Shown here piece after piece: positions 36,321 to 42,279 of a stretch of DNA of 64,000 bases. The translations under genes were made by a program, and so were the position numbers. The first letter of the stretch is position 1, and the number at the start of each line of letters is the position of its first letter. Origin of the DNA: Prochlorococcus marinus subsp. marinus str. CCMP1375 (GTDB lineage Bacteria > Cyanobacteriota > Cyanobacteriia > PCC-6307 > Cyanobiaceae). The notes beneath the pieces were generated by a model. That model saw only the letters and a program-made list of their open reading frames with translations. It made no database searches and was not told where the DNA came from. The stretch is from NCBI RefSeq assembly GCF_000007925.1, contig NC_005042.1, forward strand, positions 682,001 through 746,000, in the 5' to 3' direction.

Positions 36321-37250
36321 TTATGTAAGTGCTCCACCACAACTAGAACCGCAACCCGCAGTACAACCAAAGCAGTGTTCGGCAACAGTTATCTTCTTCC
36401 CCTCAAATAATATGTTTCCACTTGCTAGATCTTTAAGAGTATTTGGGTGCAAATATTCATTTATACCTAATTGTTGATTGAAATCACAATCGAACAAATT
36501 GCCCTCCCAATTTACACTAATTGTATCTCTGCACATAACGGATTCTAGGTTAGCTTCATTATGACTTTCTTGAAGGAGAGATTGATATTCATTTAGTTTA
36601 CCTTGTTGTTTAAGGAATGATGAGAACCTCTTAATTGGCATATTCGCCAGCACTAGCAAGTTATCAAATTCAACATTATAATTAGTTTTGAGTACATCTT
36701 TATACTTCTTCTCTAGTTCATATTGAGATGGGGGTAAATTAGCTCCAATAGGGTTAAAAACAAGATCAAGTTCCAATTTTTTATCTCCTTTACCATACCC
36801 TAATTCATTCAACATCTTCAATACTTTAATACTTTTTTTAAACACATCCTTACCTCTTTGAAAATCTACATTTTTTTCCTCATAGCAGGGCAATGACGCT
36901 ATAATAGTTACTTCGTTATCAGCCAAGTAATTAGCAAGACTAAGGTATCCAGGTTCTGTTAGTATTGTTAGGTTAGATCGGTCGATTATCTTTACATTTA
37001 ATTTTGATACTTTATGGATTAGCTCTTTGAAAAGCGGATGCATCTCTGGAGCCCCGCCCGTTATATCAAGTGTCTTTATTCTATAAGTTTTTAACACTTC
37101 CGGTATCAGAGATATGTTATATTCATTCATCATTTCAGTTCTACTAGGGCTTGCATCAACATGACAATGAACACAAGCTTGATTACATTTGTAACCTAAG
37201 TTTACTTGTAATGTATTAACTTTCTTCCTTCTTATGACAGGAAAATCCAT
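36321..37250 (-). CDS. ArsS-like radical SAM protein (arsenosugar-type family)
   Basis: Radical SAM enzyme of 309 residues. The 4Fe-4S cluster motif is Cys22-x3-Cys26-x2-Cys29 in KCNQACVHCHVDASPSRTE. Following motifs include TLDITGGAPEMHP, and the C-terminal DUF3641-type part ends with a Cys-rich CFGCTAGCGSSCGG. This matches the ArsS family, whose characterised members take part in arsenosugar biosynthesis; no other arsenic gene is in the window. It is 47 bases from the StpA-like gene on the same strand and may share its mRNA. Confidence 0.85.
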   Translation of the reverse strand: MDFPVIRRKKVNTLQVNLGYKCNQACVHCHVDASPSRTEMMNEYNISLIPEVLKTYRIKTLDITGGAPEMHPLFKELIHKVSKLNVKIIDRSNLTILTEPGYLSLANYLADNEVTIIASLPCYEEKNVDFQRGKDVFKKSIKVLKMLNELGYGKGDKKLELDLVFNPIGANLPPSQYELEKKYKDVLKTNYNVEFDNLLVLANMPIKRFSSFLKQQGKLNEYQSLLQESHNEANLESVMCRDTISVNWEGNLFDCDFNQQLGINEYLHPNTLKDLASGNILFEGKKITVAEHCFGCTAGCGSSCGGALT

Positions 37251-37297: not shown

Positions 37298-38536
37298 CTA
37301 TATTGACTCTCTTGTTTCCTTAATAGATTTCCTTCTGGTAGCAAACTCTTTTAGCCATGCTTTATACTCTATAGGGCCACCTTTCATTATTAAATCAAAA
37401 TTTAGATCGTCATTATCATCAGTTATACCATTAAGAGTACCATCTCTTGTAGATGGTCTATAAACCTCACCATGACTACTATCGACGAAAATTAATTTAT
37501 TTTGCTTTTTATATTCCATTCCTAGTTTTTGTATGAGAGTTAGGAACCCTCTGTCACTACCACCTCTTAACCATTTGCCTGAAGTATTGTGTTTATTGGA
37601 AGTTACAGTGTCTCCTACTCCAACTAAAATTGGCATTTCATCATATGTTATATTTTCTTTGCACAATGTTATCAACCCTTTTACTGATTTTGGAGCTTCT
37701 CTAACATTAAAATTTTCACCAAAAGGACAGTAACCATTTTTATTTAATATATATTTATTGATTAATACTAATAAACCTGCTTCTTTTAACGCACCATTAA
37801 TTATGAATTGAATATCTGTTGTACCTATATCATACTTTGTAGCATATTTAATAAGCTCTAAACCATTTTCTTTCCCTAGATTTGGTGATATATGTAGATA
37901 AAATGAATCTTTTAGTTCACGTGAACTTGCTATTTCTTTAATTTTAAGCATTACTCTATGAATTGCTTTTTGCAATTCTATTTTTTTGAGCACACTATGC
38001 TTAAATATATTAAAGAGTGAATTTAAATTAATAGCTGGGGAATAACGTGTATCGCAGACAGCTATATTGACTTGATCTTCAATTTCTTGCTCTGAGAGCG
38101 ATTTAAGTATTTCCCTTAATTCTTTAGCTAATAATTCTTTCATCAATATTGGCACTTCGTTAATGAATTGAATCTCTCTTTTCTCCACGCCTAGAAGTTC
38201 AATATTACCAAAATTATCTTGAAATTCTATTCCACATGCTGCTAATCCAGGAAGATATAGACCTTTATTGCCCACGTAGCCTTTAGAATCAAATGCTTTT
38301 TCTATTATTCTATTTACACCTCTTTTACCTTCATGTTCACCACAAGTTAGAACGTAAAACTCATTTCTAAGATTAGAGACTGTTTTTACATAATCTTTAT
38401 CTATCTTTCTGTCAAGAGGGTCTTTGAATAATGGAATGCAGACACCATCTATATCTTGAACTATAAGTAATTTTTTGCTATTAAGTAATATATCTGTACA
38501 TTTATTGTAGTTAGACTCACTATACATACCTTCCAA
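37298..38536 (-). CDS. StpA-like glucosylglycerol-phosphate phosphatase
   Basis: The 412-residue protein has an HAD-type start (LIVQDIDGVCIPL, with Asp28 and Asp30) and resembles the StpA/GgpP salt-tolerance phosphatases that release glucosylglycerol from its phosphate. Late motifs such as MPILVGVGDTVTSNKHNTSG and FVDSSHGEVYRPS fit this family. No GgpS synthase is present in the window, and the actual substrate may be another glucosyl osmolyte phosphate. It is divergent from the dehydrogenase-like gene at 38713. Confidence 0.82.
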   Translation of the reverse strand: MEGMYSESNYNKCTDILLNSKKLLIVQDIDGVCIPLFKDPLDRKIDKDYVKTVSNLRNEFYVLTCGEHEGKRGVNRIIEKAFDSKGYVGNKGLYLPGLAACGIEFQDNFGNIELLGVEKREIQFINEVPILMKELLAKELREILKSLSEQEIEDQVNIAVCDTRYSPAINLNSLFNIFKHSVLKKIELQKAIHRVMLKIKEIASSRELKDSFYLHISPNLGKENGLELIKYATKYDIGTTDIQFIINGALKEAGLLVLINKYILNKNGYCPFGENFNVREAPKSVKGLITLCKENITYDEMPILVGVGDTVTSNKHNTSGKWLRGGSDRGFLTLIQKLGMEYKKQNKLIFVDSSHGEVYRPSTRDGTLNGITDDNDDLNFDLIMKGGPIEYKAWLKEFATRRKSIKETRESI

Positions 38537-38712
38537 TACTCTTTATTTATTTTATTATACTAGCCTCTTCTTTCTATTTGTACGTTTACTTAACCTTTAA
38601 TATGTAAGTCTTGTTGCCCACACAAATACCTTTGTTAGAATTATTTTATTATGATTATGTTTTATTTTTAAAATATATGTTGTTATCTCAAAAATCGTAA
38701 ATTGCTAAACAG

Positions 38713-40245
38713 ATGAATAATGATTTTTTTGTTAACTCTAAAAGCAAGGCCTCTATAGCTTCGAGGCTTAGGCAACTAAAAGAAGGGAAAGTAGGGTTTT
38801 ATAGTATTGGACTTTACCCAGCTTCATTGGCATACAACTGTGCTATGCACACAAAAGTGGATAATTTACTATTGGCACCAAGACCTGGACGAGAATTGCT
38901 AGGAGCATTTTCAGATCAATTGAAATCGGAACTAAATCCAGAATGCGTAAAAAAAATGTATAAAATGTCTTTATTCCGGATCGGAAGCAGGACATCTACT
39001 TATCAACTTACTGATTTACTTGAAAAATGCGAACTTGTTATTTTAAGTGCCAATAGTAACCACATAGAGAATGATCTAAATCAAGCATGTGAATTAAGGG
39101 AACGATTAGGCCGACAAAATGTAGTATTAGCATGTTTTGTAGGTTCATTTACTTATGATGAGAATACAAAATTAATTTCCCTTTTATGTCAGAAATACTC
39201 TAATTTAGCTTTCTTCTCTGGTTTTCACCGTCATGGGGCTTTAAGAAATAAGCTTGATAGCTTTACTGCTAATTTCTGTCATCCAGATCCTTTCATTTCT
39301 CTAATAGGTGCACGACTATTAGATCGATTATCTCCTAACATACAAGTATCAGCTGGAGTACATAATGTAGAAGGTCAATATATTAAAGCAGCTAAGAATA
39401 TCTCGTCAATTTTTGCAGGCTTTGGTCATACTTTTCATCAAAATAATCCAGGATTACTACCTACGATACTTACTTTACTTCTTAATCAATGCTTAGATCA
39501 AGCAGCTACAGTTTCCATGAGTAGGGATGATAGAGATAAGTTTTATTCAGAATCTTTTCTACCACTTACTGAAATAGGTTATGGAGTGCAGTGCATTGAA
39601 GCAGCTCTTTCTAAAAAAGGTAAATTGCAAAAAGTTAGAGATCATACCTTTACTCAATTAACAGCTATGATCGCAGATGTAAAGGGCAGTATGATGCTCC
39701 CAGTAAGTGGAGAACCTACCAGGAATTTTCAAGTTGGTCAGATTCTTGCGAGAAATATGTATAAGTTAAAGCGTTGCCCATTAGATATTCAAGAACTTAT
39801 AGGTTGGTGTGAAAAAGAAGGTTTACCTTTAGGAGCACTTGAAGGTATTAATTCATTACAATACTGGCCACAAATTATAAAAAAGTATTCTATTCCATTC
39901 CATGATACATCAATGATAAATTTATTATATATGTCTATATTCGCAACTGATGAAATAAAAGTCCATATTTTTAAGATCATGACTAATAGCCGTGAATTAA
40001 CAAAGTTCTGTCAGGAATCTGTACTTCCAGACTCCTCACTTAAAATGAATGAACTTTTAAATAATATTGATATTAATGAGGTTTTGGATTTTATTACTAC
40101 TTCATTATCTTCAAATAAACTAGATCAAGTAAAGTTAGAAAATGTATTAGAAGTGATTATGAATAGAACTTCTAATAGTCCTTTCTATAAATCTTCTTAT
40201 GAAGAAATAAAATATATCTTTAATACTATTTTATATGATTTATAA
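38713..40245 (+). CDS. Large dehydrogenase-like protein of unknown substrate
   Basis: Not certainly recognised. The 510-residue product begins with a possible Rossmann beta-alpha-beta (KVGFYSIGLYPASLAYNCA), has a stretch LEKCELVILSANSNHIENDL, and a late LARNMYKLKRCP...LPLGALEGINSLQYW segment that loosely recalls the C-terminal part of GpsA-type glycerol-3-phosphate dehydrogenases. The normal GxGxxG is not intact. It is divergent from the StpA-like phosphatase and followed by a NahK-like kinase, so a place in sugar or osmolyte phosphate metabolism is suggested by context. Confidence 0.6.
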   Translation: MNNDFFVNSKSKASIASRLRQLKEGKVGFYSIGLYPASLAYNCAMHTKVDNLLLAPRPGRELLGAFSDQLKSELNPECVKKMYKMSLFRIGSRTSTYQLTDLLEKCELVILSANSNHIENDLNQACELRERLGRQNVVLACFVGSFTYDENTKLISLLCQKYSNLAFFSGFHRHGALRNKLDSFTANFCHPDPFISLIGARLLDRLSPNIQVSAGVHNVEGQYIKAAKNISSIFAGFGHTFHQNNPGLLPTILTLLLNQCLDQAATVSMSRDDRDKFYSESFLPLTEIGYGVQCIEAALSKKGKLQKVRDHTFTQLTAMIADVKGSMMLPVSGEPTRNFQVGQILARNMYKLKRCPLDIQELIGWCEKEGLPLGALEGINSLQYWPQIIKKYSIPFHDTSMINLLYMSIFATDEIKVHIFKIMTNSRELTKFCQESVLPDSSLKMNELLNNIDINEVLDFITTSLSSNKLDQVKLENVLEVIMNRTSNSPFYKSSYEEIKYIFNTILYDL

Positions 40246-40344
40246 AGTTATTTAATGTACTTATCTAACGAATTCAATTTTTTATTTAACTTGTTTAGAC
40301 CTATAATATTATTTATTATTATTCTAATTATTTATAACAAGTAA

Positions 40345-41496
40345 TTGGCATATTTTAAACATCATTCAAAATTAGAATTAGAAGAATTGGCTTATTCTTT
40401 TATGCCTAATAAATTTAAGCTTATTATTCAACCAATTAACTCTGGTCTTATCAATCAGACTTTTCTTATAGTACCTTTGATTTTATGTGAATTTAAACCA
40501 TTTTTATTGCAGAGAATAAATAAGGAGGTATTTGCTAAACCAAGAGATATAATTTCTAATTATTTGTTTTTACAGCATCAACTTATTACTAAACAACAAA
40601 ATGTAAATAGAAGCAAAGCAACTTTAAAGATCCCTAAATTATTAATAAACCAAATCAATAATAAATATTATACAGAACTTAAAGGAAATTTCTGGCGAGC
40701 TTTTGAATATATTCCTAATTCTATAACTTATAATTCATTACCTTCTGATTCTTCATTTGATAATCTTTTTAGAGCCCTAGCAAACTTTCATTATTCAACT
40801 ACAGATATACCTTTAGGCAAATTTAAGATTACATTACCAAATTTCCATAATACTTCTTTTTATATCGCAGAATATAAAAAAGCATTAGACATATTTATTG
40901 CCAATAATGATCAAAGGGAAGGTATTCCGCAGTCTGTAAATTCTATTTTTTCATATGCCAACGACAATATTTCGGAAGGGCTTCTTTTGGAAGAGGCAAA
41001 ATCAAAAAATATACTTTCCTTTAATATAATTCATGGTGACCCTAAAGTTAATAATTTCCTTTTTGAATCTACAAGCAATGATGTTTTAGCTATAATCGAT
41101 TTAGATACATTGCAGGATGGTTATTTAATATATGATATATCGGATTGTCTTCGTTCCTCCTGCAATTTATTAGGAGAGGAATCTAAAGCATTGAATGATA
41201 TAAGATTTGATTTGACCTCTTTTAAATTATCACTCTCATCTTATTTTAATTCAGGGTTTAATACTCTTAACAAATCAGACATTTACTTTCTTCCTTATTG
41301 TATTAGGGTTATTACATATGAGTTAGGAATTAGATTCCTAACAGATTATCTTTTAGGCGACAATTACTTTAAAACTTCTTATAAACAGCATAATCTTACC
41401 AGATCAAAAGTACAGTTTAAACTATTAAATAGTATAAAGGAAAACTGGAATGACATAGTCGATATAACCAATAATCTTTATACCTCTAGAATATAA
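40345..41496 (+). CDS. NahK-like phosphotransferase (APH fold)
   Basis: Kinase of the aminoglycoside-phosphotransferase fold, 383 residues. The N-terminal SGLINQTFLI and LLQRINKEVFAKPRDI segments are close to those of N-acetylhexosamine 1-kinase. The catalytic loop is IHGDPKVNNFLFE (HGDxxxxN), followed by the metal-binding AIIDLDTLQDG. It should phosphorylate a sugar or sugar derivative with ATP. The start is TTG at 40345. The 99-base gap before it is very AT-rich. It probably belongs to the same locus as the dehydrogenase-like gene. Confidence 0.78.
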   Translation: MAYFKHHSKLELEELAYSFMPNKFKLIIQPINSGLINQTFLIVPLILCEFKPFLLQRINKEVFAKPRDIISNYLFLQHQLITKQQNVNRSKATLKIPKLLINQINNKYYTELKGNFWRAFEYIPNSITYNSLPSDSSFDNLFRALANFHYSTTDIPLGKFKITLPNFHNTSFYIAEYKKALDIFIANNDQREGIPQSVNSIFSYANDNISEGLLLEEAKSKNILSFNIIHGDPKVNNFLFESTSNDVLAIIDLDTLQDGYLIYDISDCLRSSCNLLGEESKALNDIRFDLTSFKLSLSSYFNSGFNTLNKSDIYFLPYCIRVITYELGIRFLTDYLLGDNYFKTSYKQHNLTRSKVQFKLLNSIKENWNDIVDITNNLYTSRI

Positions 41497-41574
41497 GCAT
41501 TTACAATTATTAGCCCAATGAATTGCAGTTGCTTTATTTCCTATTATTCTTTATATATAAAATGACTTTTTAAT

Positions 41575-42279
41575 GTGTCTAAGGAATTAACTCATCGAGC
41601 AGAAGAGCTGAAAGATCTTGGGTGGTCTGAGCATGACCTAGCACGCTACATAGAACTCTGGGATTACAGACAACGTTGGGGAGCTATTAATTTAGAACGA
41701 GATGACCGCCAATTCCTAAGGAAGGCAGAAGCAGCTTTGCCAGAGATAAAGACATTAAAAAGCTCTGTCAAAAAACCTATCAAAGAAAAATCTTATTACT
41801 GCAGGTTAGTGTTTTTCCTGGAAGAGATGGCTAAAGCAGAAACCTCTTTTGATTCCAAGCCTTCATCAAAAGGACTTTGGCCGATTCTTTTGGAAGAGGA
41901 GTTAAGACTTTTGGATTATTTTCAGCCAGTCTTAGGACTACCAGACACCTTGAAATCTAAGGCTCTTATACCTTTTAGAGAAAATATTATTTCTTCGTTA
42001 ATTGAGAAGCATAAGGAGAATATTCAAACTTTTGACTTCGATTTCAACTCTTCATTGGAGACTTATAATTCCAGTGAGAATAAGAATTGGAAGCCTTTAA
42101 GAGATGGTATTACAAAGGATCTAACTGTCTATGCAATAGTTGATCAAGCACATATTTCTGATTGTAGAAACCTTATAAGACAAAAACTTATTCCTACAAT
42201 TAGGGATTGTTTCCCTTCTCTCGTAGATATGGATAAATCCAATCCTTCAGATGATTGGATTCCAGAATCCCAATCTTGA
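41575..42279 (+). CDS. Conserved-type cyanobacterial hypothetical protein
   Basis: The function is not recognised. The 234-residue product starts with GTG and is hydrophilic, with LTHRAEELKDLGWSEHDLARYIELWDYRQRWGAINLERDDRQFL near the N-terminus, quoted in part as LWDYRQRWGAINLERDDR. Charged and helical throughout, with no cofactor motif, membrane helix or signal peptide. It lies 33 bases before metY in the same direction. Confidence 0.65.
   Translation: MSKELTHRAEELKDLGWSEHDLARYIELWDYRQRWGAINLERDDRQFLRKAEAALPEIKTLKSSVKKPIKEKSYYCRLVFFLEEMAKAETSFDSKPSSKGLWPILLEEELRLLDYFQPVLGLPDTLKSKALIPFRENIISSLIEKHKENIQTFDFDFNSSLETYNSSENKNWKPLRDGITKDLTVYAIVDQAHISDCRNLIRQKLIPTIRDCFPSLVDMDKSNPSDDWIPESQS

Follow-up and report, generated by a model that had tools for sequence, protein, structure and literature searches.

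Cells need glycerol-3-phosphate for their glycerolipids, and in bacteria it forms the backbone of these lipids. The closest described systems to the locus considered here are the GpsA family of glycerol-3-phosphate dehydrogenases (GPDHs; PF01210/PF07479, including Coxiella 3k96 and human GPD1), the cyanobacterial glucosylglycerol pathway (GgpS, GgpP/StpA, GlpK and GlpD), and the GPDH of Dunaliella salina (6iuy), which we take to be a fusion of an HAD-type phosphatase and a GPDH that produces glycerol. We analyzed a 64-kb window of Prochlorococcus marinus subsp. marinus str. CCMP1375 (bases 682001-746000 of a one-contig genome of 1,751,080 bases), in which an StpA-type phosphatase gene lies divergent from a gene for a 510-residue protein, here termed OrfX. 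We propose, with a probability of roughly three in four, that OrfX is a strongly diverged GPDH that supplies glucosylglycerol synthesis in genomes with GgpS, and that replaces GpsA in marine picocyanobacteria.

Both the absence of GpsA and the orphan ggpP are already published. Prochlorococcus has a measured pool of free glycerol-3-phosphate (PMC6392094), and EC 1.1.1.94 is unannotated in Prochlorococcus and in WH7803 (PMC3369817). FAD-type glpA is found in marine and brackish strains and gpsA in freshwater strains, with both in SC5.2 brackish strains, a split called 'curious' (PMC9361551). On the osmolyte side, a co-occurrence module joins GgpS with a glycerol-3-phosphate dehydrogenase of EC 1.1.5.3 (PMC5862535); glpD and gpsA are among the genes drawn around ggpS in other cyanobacteria (figure legend in PMC6753628); ggpP and ggpS are listed for WH8102, with no OrfX-like protein in the accessible text (PMC2874817); and anoxic and symbiotic Synechococcus are without glpK, glpD and stpA (PMC12997750). 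The accessible literature on gpsA, GPDH, dihydroxyacetone phosphate and non-orthologous GpsA in Prochlorococcus and marine Synechococcus does not name OrfX as the enzyme concerned, and we found no paper in it proposing such a role.

OrfX is predicted to adopt a glycerol-3-phosphate dehydrogenase fold

orfX (38713-40245, + strand) encodes a protein that an earlier note on this DNA, made from the sequence alone, had described as dehydrogenase-like and as the least understood member of a possible three-gene osmolyte locus. Structure prediction backs the dehydrogenase-like fold. An AlphaFold2 model built from a 43-row alignment has a mean predicted local distance difference test score (pLDDT) of 83 and a predicted template modeling score of 0.83, with low-confidence stretches at residues 291-301 and 304-312. 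GPDHs occupy ranks 1-18 in a Foldseek comparison of this model with the PDB, and all of the top 16 entries in VIA-align (Z 23.7-28.4), where the best match is Coxiella GpsA 3k96 (Z 28.4, root-mean-square deviation 3.0, 310 aligned residues, 12% identity) and the Dunaliella enzyme is among the best (Z 26.6). The next fold, that of ketopantoate reductases, follows at Z 14.6. We rejected an opine or ketopantoate dehydrogenase identity for OrfX, at about Z 12-15 versus 24-28 for GPDHs; the absence of any other dehydrogenase family from the VIA-align list does not exclude that family. In the predicted model OrfX combines a Rossmann domain with the all-helical C-terminal domain of GPDHs, and the two-domain fold that it has in common with GpsA spans OrfX residues 21-440. 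Unlike GpsA, OrfX has a probable insertion around residues 270-311 and about 70 extra C-terminal residues that form a helical region.

In human GPDH we take the catalytic residues to be K204 N205, D260 and R269 N270, and the lysine of the TKG motif to be K120. The OrfX residues K228 N229, D322 and R337 N338 are invariant in two alignments (43/43 and 38/38 rows) and seem to correspond to the catalytic Lys-Asn, Asp and Arg-Asn of GpsA, an assignment made by motif and spacing (with hhalign for Arg-Asn) rather than from superposed coordinates. OrfX is a real gene: it has matches in 127 of 251 Cyanobiaceae genomes, and a nonsynonymous-to-synonymous rate ratio (dN/dS) of 0.13-0.16 in four pairs indicates purifying selection, with some synonymous divergence (dS) near saturation. 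Among 301 relatives from a scan of named genomes, those closest to the OrfX of the window are from Prochlorococcus, and in viral contigs 44 matches to an OrfX pattern included no true relative. Taking model and residues together, OrfX resembles a GPDH and probably works as one.

OrfX is found where GpsA is missing

The CCMP1375 genome has no match to PF07479 (GpsA), for which the same search was positive in 10 of 14 control genomes, nor to the models for GlpD (PF16901), GlpK (TIGR01311) or GgpS (TIGR02398). To place this absence in context we use a survey of 251 evenly drawn Cyanobiaceae genomes, with a profile or homology search for each gene; these genomes are related, so Fisher p values are not probabilities of chance. 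GpsA was found in 110 of them: 103 genomes carry OrfX only, 86 GpsA only, 24 both and 38 neither. Among the 167 good-quality genomes (completeness of 90% or more and contamination of 5% or less), 87 carry GpsA, 99 OrfX, 21 both and 165 at least one, and the two genomes with neither compare with about 33 under independence. Put differently, OrfX is present in 78 of the 80 good-quality genomes without GpsA, and in both exceptions stpA runs up to the end of its contig (3324 or 3231 bases), so that an adjacent orfX would lie beyond the contig end.

GlpD and GlpK were searched in 35 chosen genomes. Each was found in 18, and both are absent from the same 17; two of the GlpK matches lie over the TIGR01311 cut-off of 590 bits and 16 somewhat under it. 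Two of the 17 genomes have GpsA, and the other 15, each at least 99% complete, have OrfX and no GpsA. We refer to these 15 as Prochlorococcus-type, a label that is presumptive for genera g4 and g17.

OrfX and StpA are partners within Cyanobiaceae

The gene divergent from orfX, stpA/ggpP (37298-38527, - strand), encodes a member of the glucosylglycerol-phosphate phosphatase family, as the earlier note had read it: it matches PF09506 at 574.7 bits and, as a full equivalog member, TIGR02399 at 526.9 bits against a cut-off of 365.5. The listed open reading frame (37298-38536) opens at a TTG (38536), and the true start is probably the in-frame ATG three codons inside, at 38527. StpA is present in 133 of the 251 genomes (130 over the cut-off), GgpS in 90 over the cut-off, and a NahK-like kinase, encoded just downstream of orfX in this window, in 178. 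Partial genes were scored as present, namely fragments of OrfX, StpA and GgpS in G069, a G212 OrfX that is broken into three pieces and carries a stop, and OrfX genes cut by contig ends in G012 and G192.

OrfX and StpA occur together in 125 genomes, OrfX without StpA in two (G012 and G083) and StpA without OrfX in eight (phi 0.92). OrfX and the NahK-like protein occur together in 107, OrfX alone in 20 and the kinase alone in 71 (phi 0.30). Because of these counts we regard StpA and OrfX as partners within Cyanobiaceae, and the kinase as no partner of theirs; of the three-gene set in the earlier note, the link between StpA and OrfX stands and the kinase drops out. In genus g17, all 15 OrfX-bearing genomes have StpA, with no NahK-like or GgpS match. 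In a wider draw of 319 cyanobacterial genomes, 60 have StpA and 37 have OrfX, each of the latter with StpA as well. Of those 37, 36 are Cyanobiaceae that the first survey had included; outside the family, 24 genomes have StpA and one (G320) has OrfX. In G069, OrfX, StpA and GgpS are present as fragments only (contigs C3, C48 and C50) beside full matches to GpsA and the NahK-like protein, and the three seem to have decayed together.

Gene order was read in two overlapping sets of loci, 35 chosen survey loci and the best 80 of the 301 relatives from the named-genome scan. stpA lies divergent within 1.5 kb of orfX in 21 of the 35, within 10 kb in five more, is absent from the flank in eight and is cut by a contig end in one; the corresponding numbers in the best 80 are 50, 12, 14 and 4. 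Eight loci, from genera g6, g23, g25, g30, g35, g48 and g54, have no stpA in the flank, and every OrfX genome of these genera except G083 still has StpA. Three loci of genera g10 and g24 (L059, L071 and L072) have quite different surroundings, and in them stpA and orfX are still divergent neighbors. G024 and G009 have, in order, ggpS, a solute-binding protein, two permeases, an ABC ATPase, orfX, stpA, a GH13 enzyme, glpD and glpK. In this comparison Pfam searches covered seven L072 proteins and two L071 proteins, and, apart from ggpS, the other L071 genes and the whole of L059 (G134) were read by eye. The G009 and G024 loci are glucosylglycerol clusters that contain OrfX. The G134 locus is similar, partly by eye, with no clean ATPase reading frame seen and with glpD and glpK not searched, and is probably another such cluster. 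OrfX thus sits inside clusters of the glucosylglycerol pathway in two genera other than that of the window, which agrees with the earlier suggestion that StpA and OrfX belong together.

G083 (L077 and L115) has GgpS, GlpK, GlpD, GpsA and OrfX with no StpA match, a synthase without its usual phosphatase. OrfX is also present in the freshwater isolates Cyanobium CH-040 and ATX 6A2 (L118 and L119), which are singled out for ggpSP plus glycerol kinase in PMC9361551. Three contigs labeled as gammaproteobacterial metagenome-assembled genomes (L089, L092 and L107) encode OrfX proteins 59-60% identical to that of the window; at least L089 looks like mis-binned Synechococcus DNA, because it groups with Synechococcus in the OrfX tree.

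StpA is retained in a genome without GgpS

This genome differs from the described glucosylglycerol pathway in having no GgpS: TIGR02398 finds no candidate in the whole genome, as the earlier note had observed for the window, and as far as this model shows a sugar-osmolyte route through GgpS is excluded in this strain. OrfX is likewise not named as a component of the pathway in the accessible literature. The StpA motifs QDxDGVC, DTxTS and RGGSDR are retained in 16/16 aligned rows, and four pairs from genomes without ggpS give dN/dS of 0.17-0.25 (some dS near saturation). Because its motifs are retained under purifying selection, StpA is probably functional without GgpS, acting on something other than GgpS-made glucosylglycerol-phosphate. 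In North Pacific surface particles, glucosylglycerol has been recorded among diel metabolites with no annotated transcript for its synthesis in the accessible text (PMC8269247).

Neighboring genes

The next gene downstream of orfX (40345-41496, + strand) encodes the NahK-like anomeric kinase, of the APH fold. The identification made in the earlier note holds: the protein passes PF01636 and aligns over residues 27-369, essentially its full length, with N-acetylhexosamine 1-kinases in the PDB such as NahK (4ocu), at E 2e-39. Its substrate assignment is by likeness, and its distribution is not tied to that of StpA and OrfX. We rejected it as a pathway partner of the two on their co-occurrence, and the gene is only loosely linked to stpA and orfX.

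The region between the stpA and orfX starts (38528-38712, no strand) is poorly conserved among three sequences, and promoter-like matches across 38500-41600 number 19 against 18.8 expected; with sites at chance level and weak intergenic conservation, we rejected a shared stpA-orfX promoter. On the other side of stpA lies an arsS-type radical SAM gene (36321-37250, - strand; TIGR04167, 442 bits). Both stpA and arsS are present in 23/35 and 56/80 OrfX loci, and ArsS adjoins stpA in many Prochlorococcus and marine Synechococcus. We considered and dropped an arsenosugar role for this adjacency, which looks like gene order held in common by the marine lineage: in the three g10/g24 loci stpA and orfX remain neighbors and the stretch has no arsS match. 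We place arsS outside the proposed function. Beyond the kinase lies a gene (41575-42279, + strand) for a 234-residue protein without Pfam or NCBIfam match; in many marine loci this gene separates the kinase gene from a metB-like one.

Discussion

Our reading of OrfX as a GPDH is based on its model fold, its invariant active-site-like residues, its complementarity with GpsA, its linkage to StpA and to glucosylglycerol clusters, and the purifying selection acting on it. In the mechanism we propose, OrfX would reduce dihydroxyacetone phosphate to sn-glycerol-3-phosphate with NAD(P)H; reaction, cofactor and direction are our assignments. In relatives that keep canonical GpsA, OrfX would supply the acceptor for GgpS, and StpA would then strip the phosphate to yield glucosylglycerol. 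In marine Synechococcus and Prochlorococcus, GpsA would have been lost, with OrfX providing glycerol-3-phosphate for glycerolipids. Where a Prochlorococcus lineage is also without GgpS, GlpK and GlpD, OrfX would be the sole candidate source among the families searched, and StpA would be kept for another phosphate ester. The main job of the 510-residue protein in this genome is thus likelier to be glycerol-3-phosphate synthesis, an option absent from the earlier note.

A number of observations weigh against this proposal. At the sequence level, OrfX matches no Pfam or NCBIfam model at E values of up to 1. PDB searches with phmmer and with a profile return chance-like matches only, to an A49R protein (E 0.05) and to sortases (E >1). 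When OrfX is compared by hhalign with five cyanobacterial GpsA proteins, the single local match falls at the Arg-Asn motif, with a probability of 0.4%. PF07479 gives sub-threshold matches in two of 38 OrfX members (E 0.0084 over residues 294-418 in one, E 0.19 in the other), and OrfX does not rise above the Pfam gathering score for PF01210 or PF07479. Its dinucleotide motif is S31-x-G33-x-x-P36 in 43/43 rows (P36 is alanine in 2/38 rows of the other alignment) rather than GxGxxG, where the GpsA alignment has GxGxWG, and by hand alignment the TKG lysine appears to be replaced by V/A/S143 before an invariant G144. OrfX falls short of the GpsA family definition on two sequence criteria, and we therefore leave it outside that family: it shares with GpsA the invariant Lys-Asn, Asp and Arg-Asn and a complementary genomic distribution, and differs in its roughly 12% identity, missing Pfam match, SxGxxP motif and apparently missing TKG lysine. 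A second OrfX model, from 13 rows of GpsA-bearing and outside lineages, is poor (pLDDT 60.4); six GPDH rows lead its match list (Z 13.2-13.8) with no gap to other dehydrogenases. It is too weak to confirm the C-terminal half, so that the fold comes from one good predicted model.

The distribution of OrfX also contains points against its replacing GpsA. OrfX and GpsA occur together not only in the 24 Cyanobiaceae genomes noted above, but also in relatives that apparently lie outside the family (Leptolyngbya, four Xenococcaceae, MH1_Bin12 and G320), and OrfX is therefore not always a replacement. In a tree of 79 OrfX rows, the six of these relatives other than G320 fall inside an 18-row group (support 100/97) of mostly GpsA-bearing Synechococcus and Cyanobium, a position that would suit transfer. 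The complementarity could stem from one or two losses of GpsA rather than from many events; in the OrfX tree G054 falls among GpsA-bearing rows, which would allow more than one loss without demonstrating it. Three good-quality genomes (G102, G180 and G203) have StpA and GpsA without OrfX, which fits an OrfX that is dispensable beside GpsA yet weakens a strict dependence between StpA and OrfX. Finally, the lack of other sources of glycerol-3-phosphate holds for PF07479, PF16901 and TIGR01311, the three models searched.

Among other explanations, the one that survives best, although we consider it unlikely, holds that Prochlorococcus StpA is the missing sucrose-phosphate phosphatase and that OrfX is an unrelated neighbor. 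MIT 9303, which has ggpP and no ggpS, makes no glucosylglycerol, and a role for ggpP in sucrose-phosphate metabolism has been raised as speculation (PMC11505929). The purifying selection on StpA in genomes without ggpS agrees with such a role. Treating OrfX as a bystander leaves unaccounted for its co-occurrence with StpA also where the two genes are unlinked and where GgpS is present. The StpA half of this explanation is compatible with OrfX being a GPDH.

Somewhat less probable still is that OrfX has the GPDH fold with another phosphorylated substrate, perhaps a larger one, that is linked to StpA. It might for example reduce a glycosylated dihydroxyacetone phosphate, with the result that the two proteins could produce a heteroside where GgpS is lacking. 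The tight link to StpA, which includes GgpS-less genomes, speaks for this idea, as do the extra C-terminal helical region, the probable insertion around 270-311, the apparent replacement of the TKG lysine and the retention of GpsA in outside-family relatives. It leaves unexplained, however, why OrfX is present in nearly all good-quality genomes without GpsA and where Prochlorococcus obtains glycerol-3-phosphate, and MIT 9303 again makes no glucosylglycerol (PMC11505929).

A related idea, which we regard as a speculative extension with slightly poorer odds, is that the two proteins amount to the Dunaliella enzyme split in two. OrfX would convert dihydroxyacetone phosphate to glycerol-3-phosphate and StpA would remove the phosphate from it. 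With no GgpS, Prochlorococcus might then produce and release glycerol as such, or some novel solute derived from it, serving as osmolyte or overflow product. Unlike in Dunaliella, the phosphatase here is a separate, divergent gene of another family.

We think it very improbable that OrfX is a dehydrogenase of osmolyte synthesis only, with marine lipid glycerol-3-phosphate coming from a reversed FAD-dependent GlpA/GlpD or from glycerol and GlpK, as published gene tallies imply. Marine and brackish strains do have FAD-type glpA and glycerol kinase, with gpsA in freshwater and SC5.2 brackish strains only (PMC9361551), and the g5 and g34 genomes that we tested agree. Against it, none of GlpD, GlpK and GpsA is matched in any of the 15 near-complete Prochlorococcus-type genomes. 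The least credible explanation is the three-gene sugar-osmolyte pathway of StpA, OrfX and the NahK-like kinase: the kinase gene does lie directly downstream of orfX in 16/35 and 47/80 loci, but 71 genomes have it without OrfX and 20 OrfX genomes lack it, it evolves faster (dN/dS 0.36 in two pairs, some dS near saturation), and GgpS is absent. The three genes are present in the order and on the strands first described, and the osmolyte idea built on them was only partly right; its least understood member is the interesting one.

Returning to OrfX as a diverged GPDH, the protein probably fills an essential and unrecognized gap in marine picocyanobacteria, judging from its predicted fold and its distribution. 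In their accessible portions, the published gene tallies (PMC3369817, PMC9361551) record this gap without a solution for Prochlorococcus. If our proposal is correct, OrfX would complete the metabolic models of a highly abundant phototroph at an essential step and would assign a function to an uncharacterized protein family of marine picocyanobacteria. It would also provide a concrete handle on the persistence of StpA without GgpS, and would suggest how an enzyme of an osmolyte pathway became a core lipid enzyme upon the loss of GpsA.

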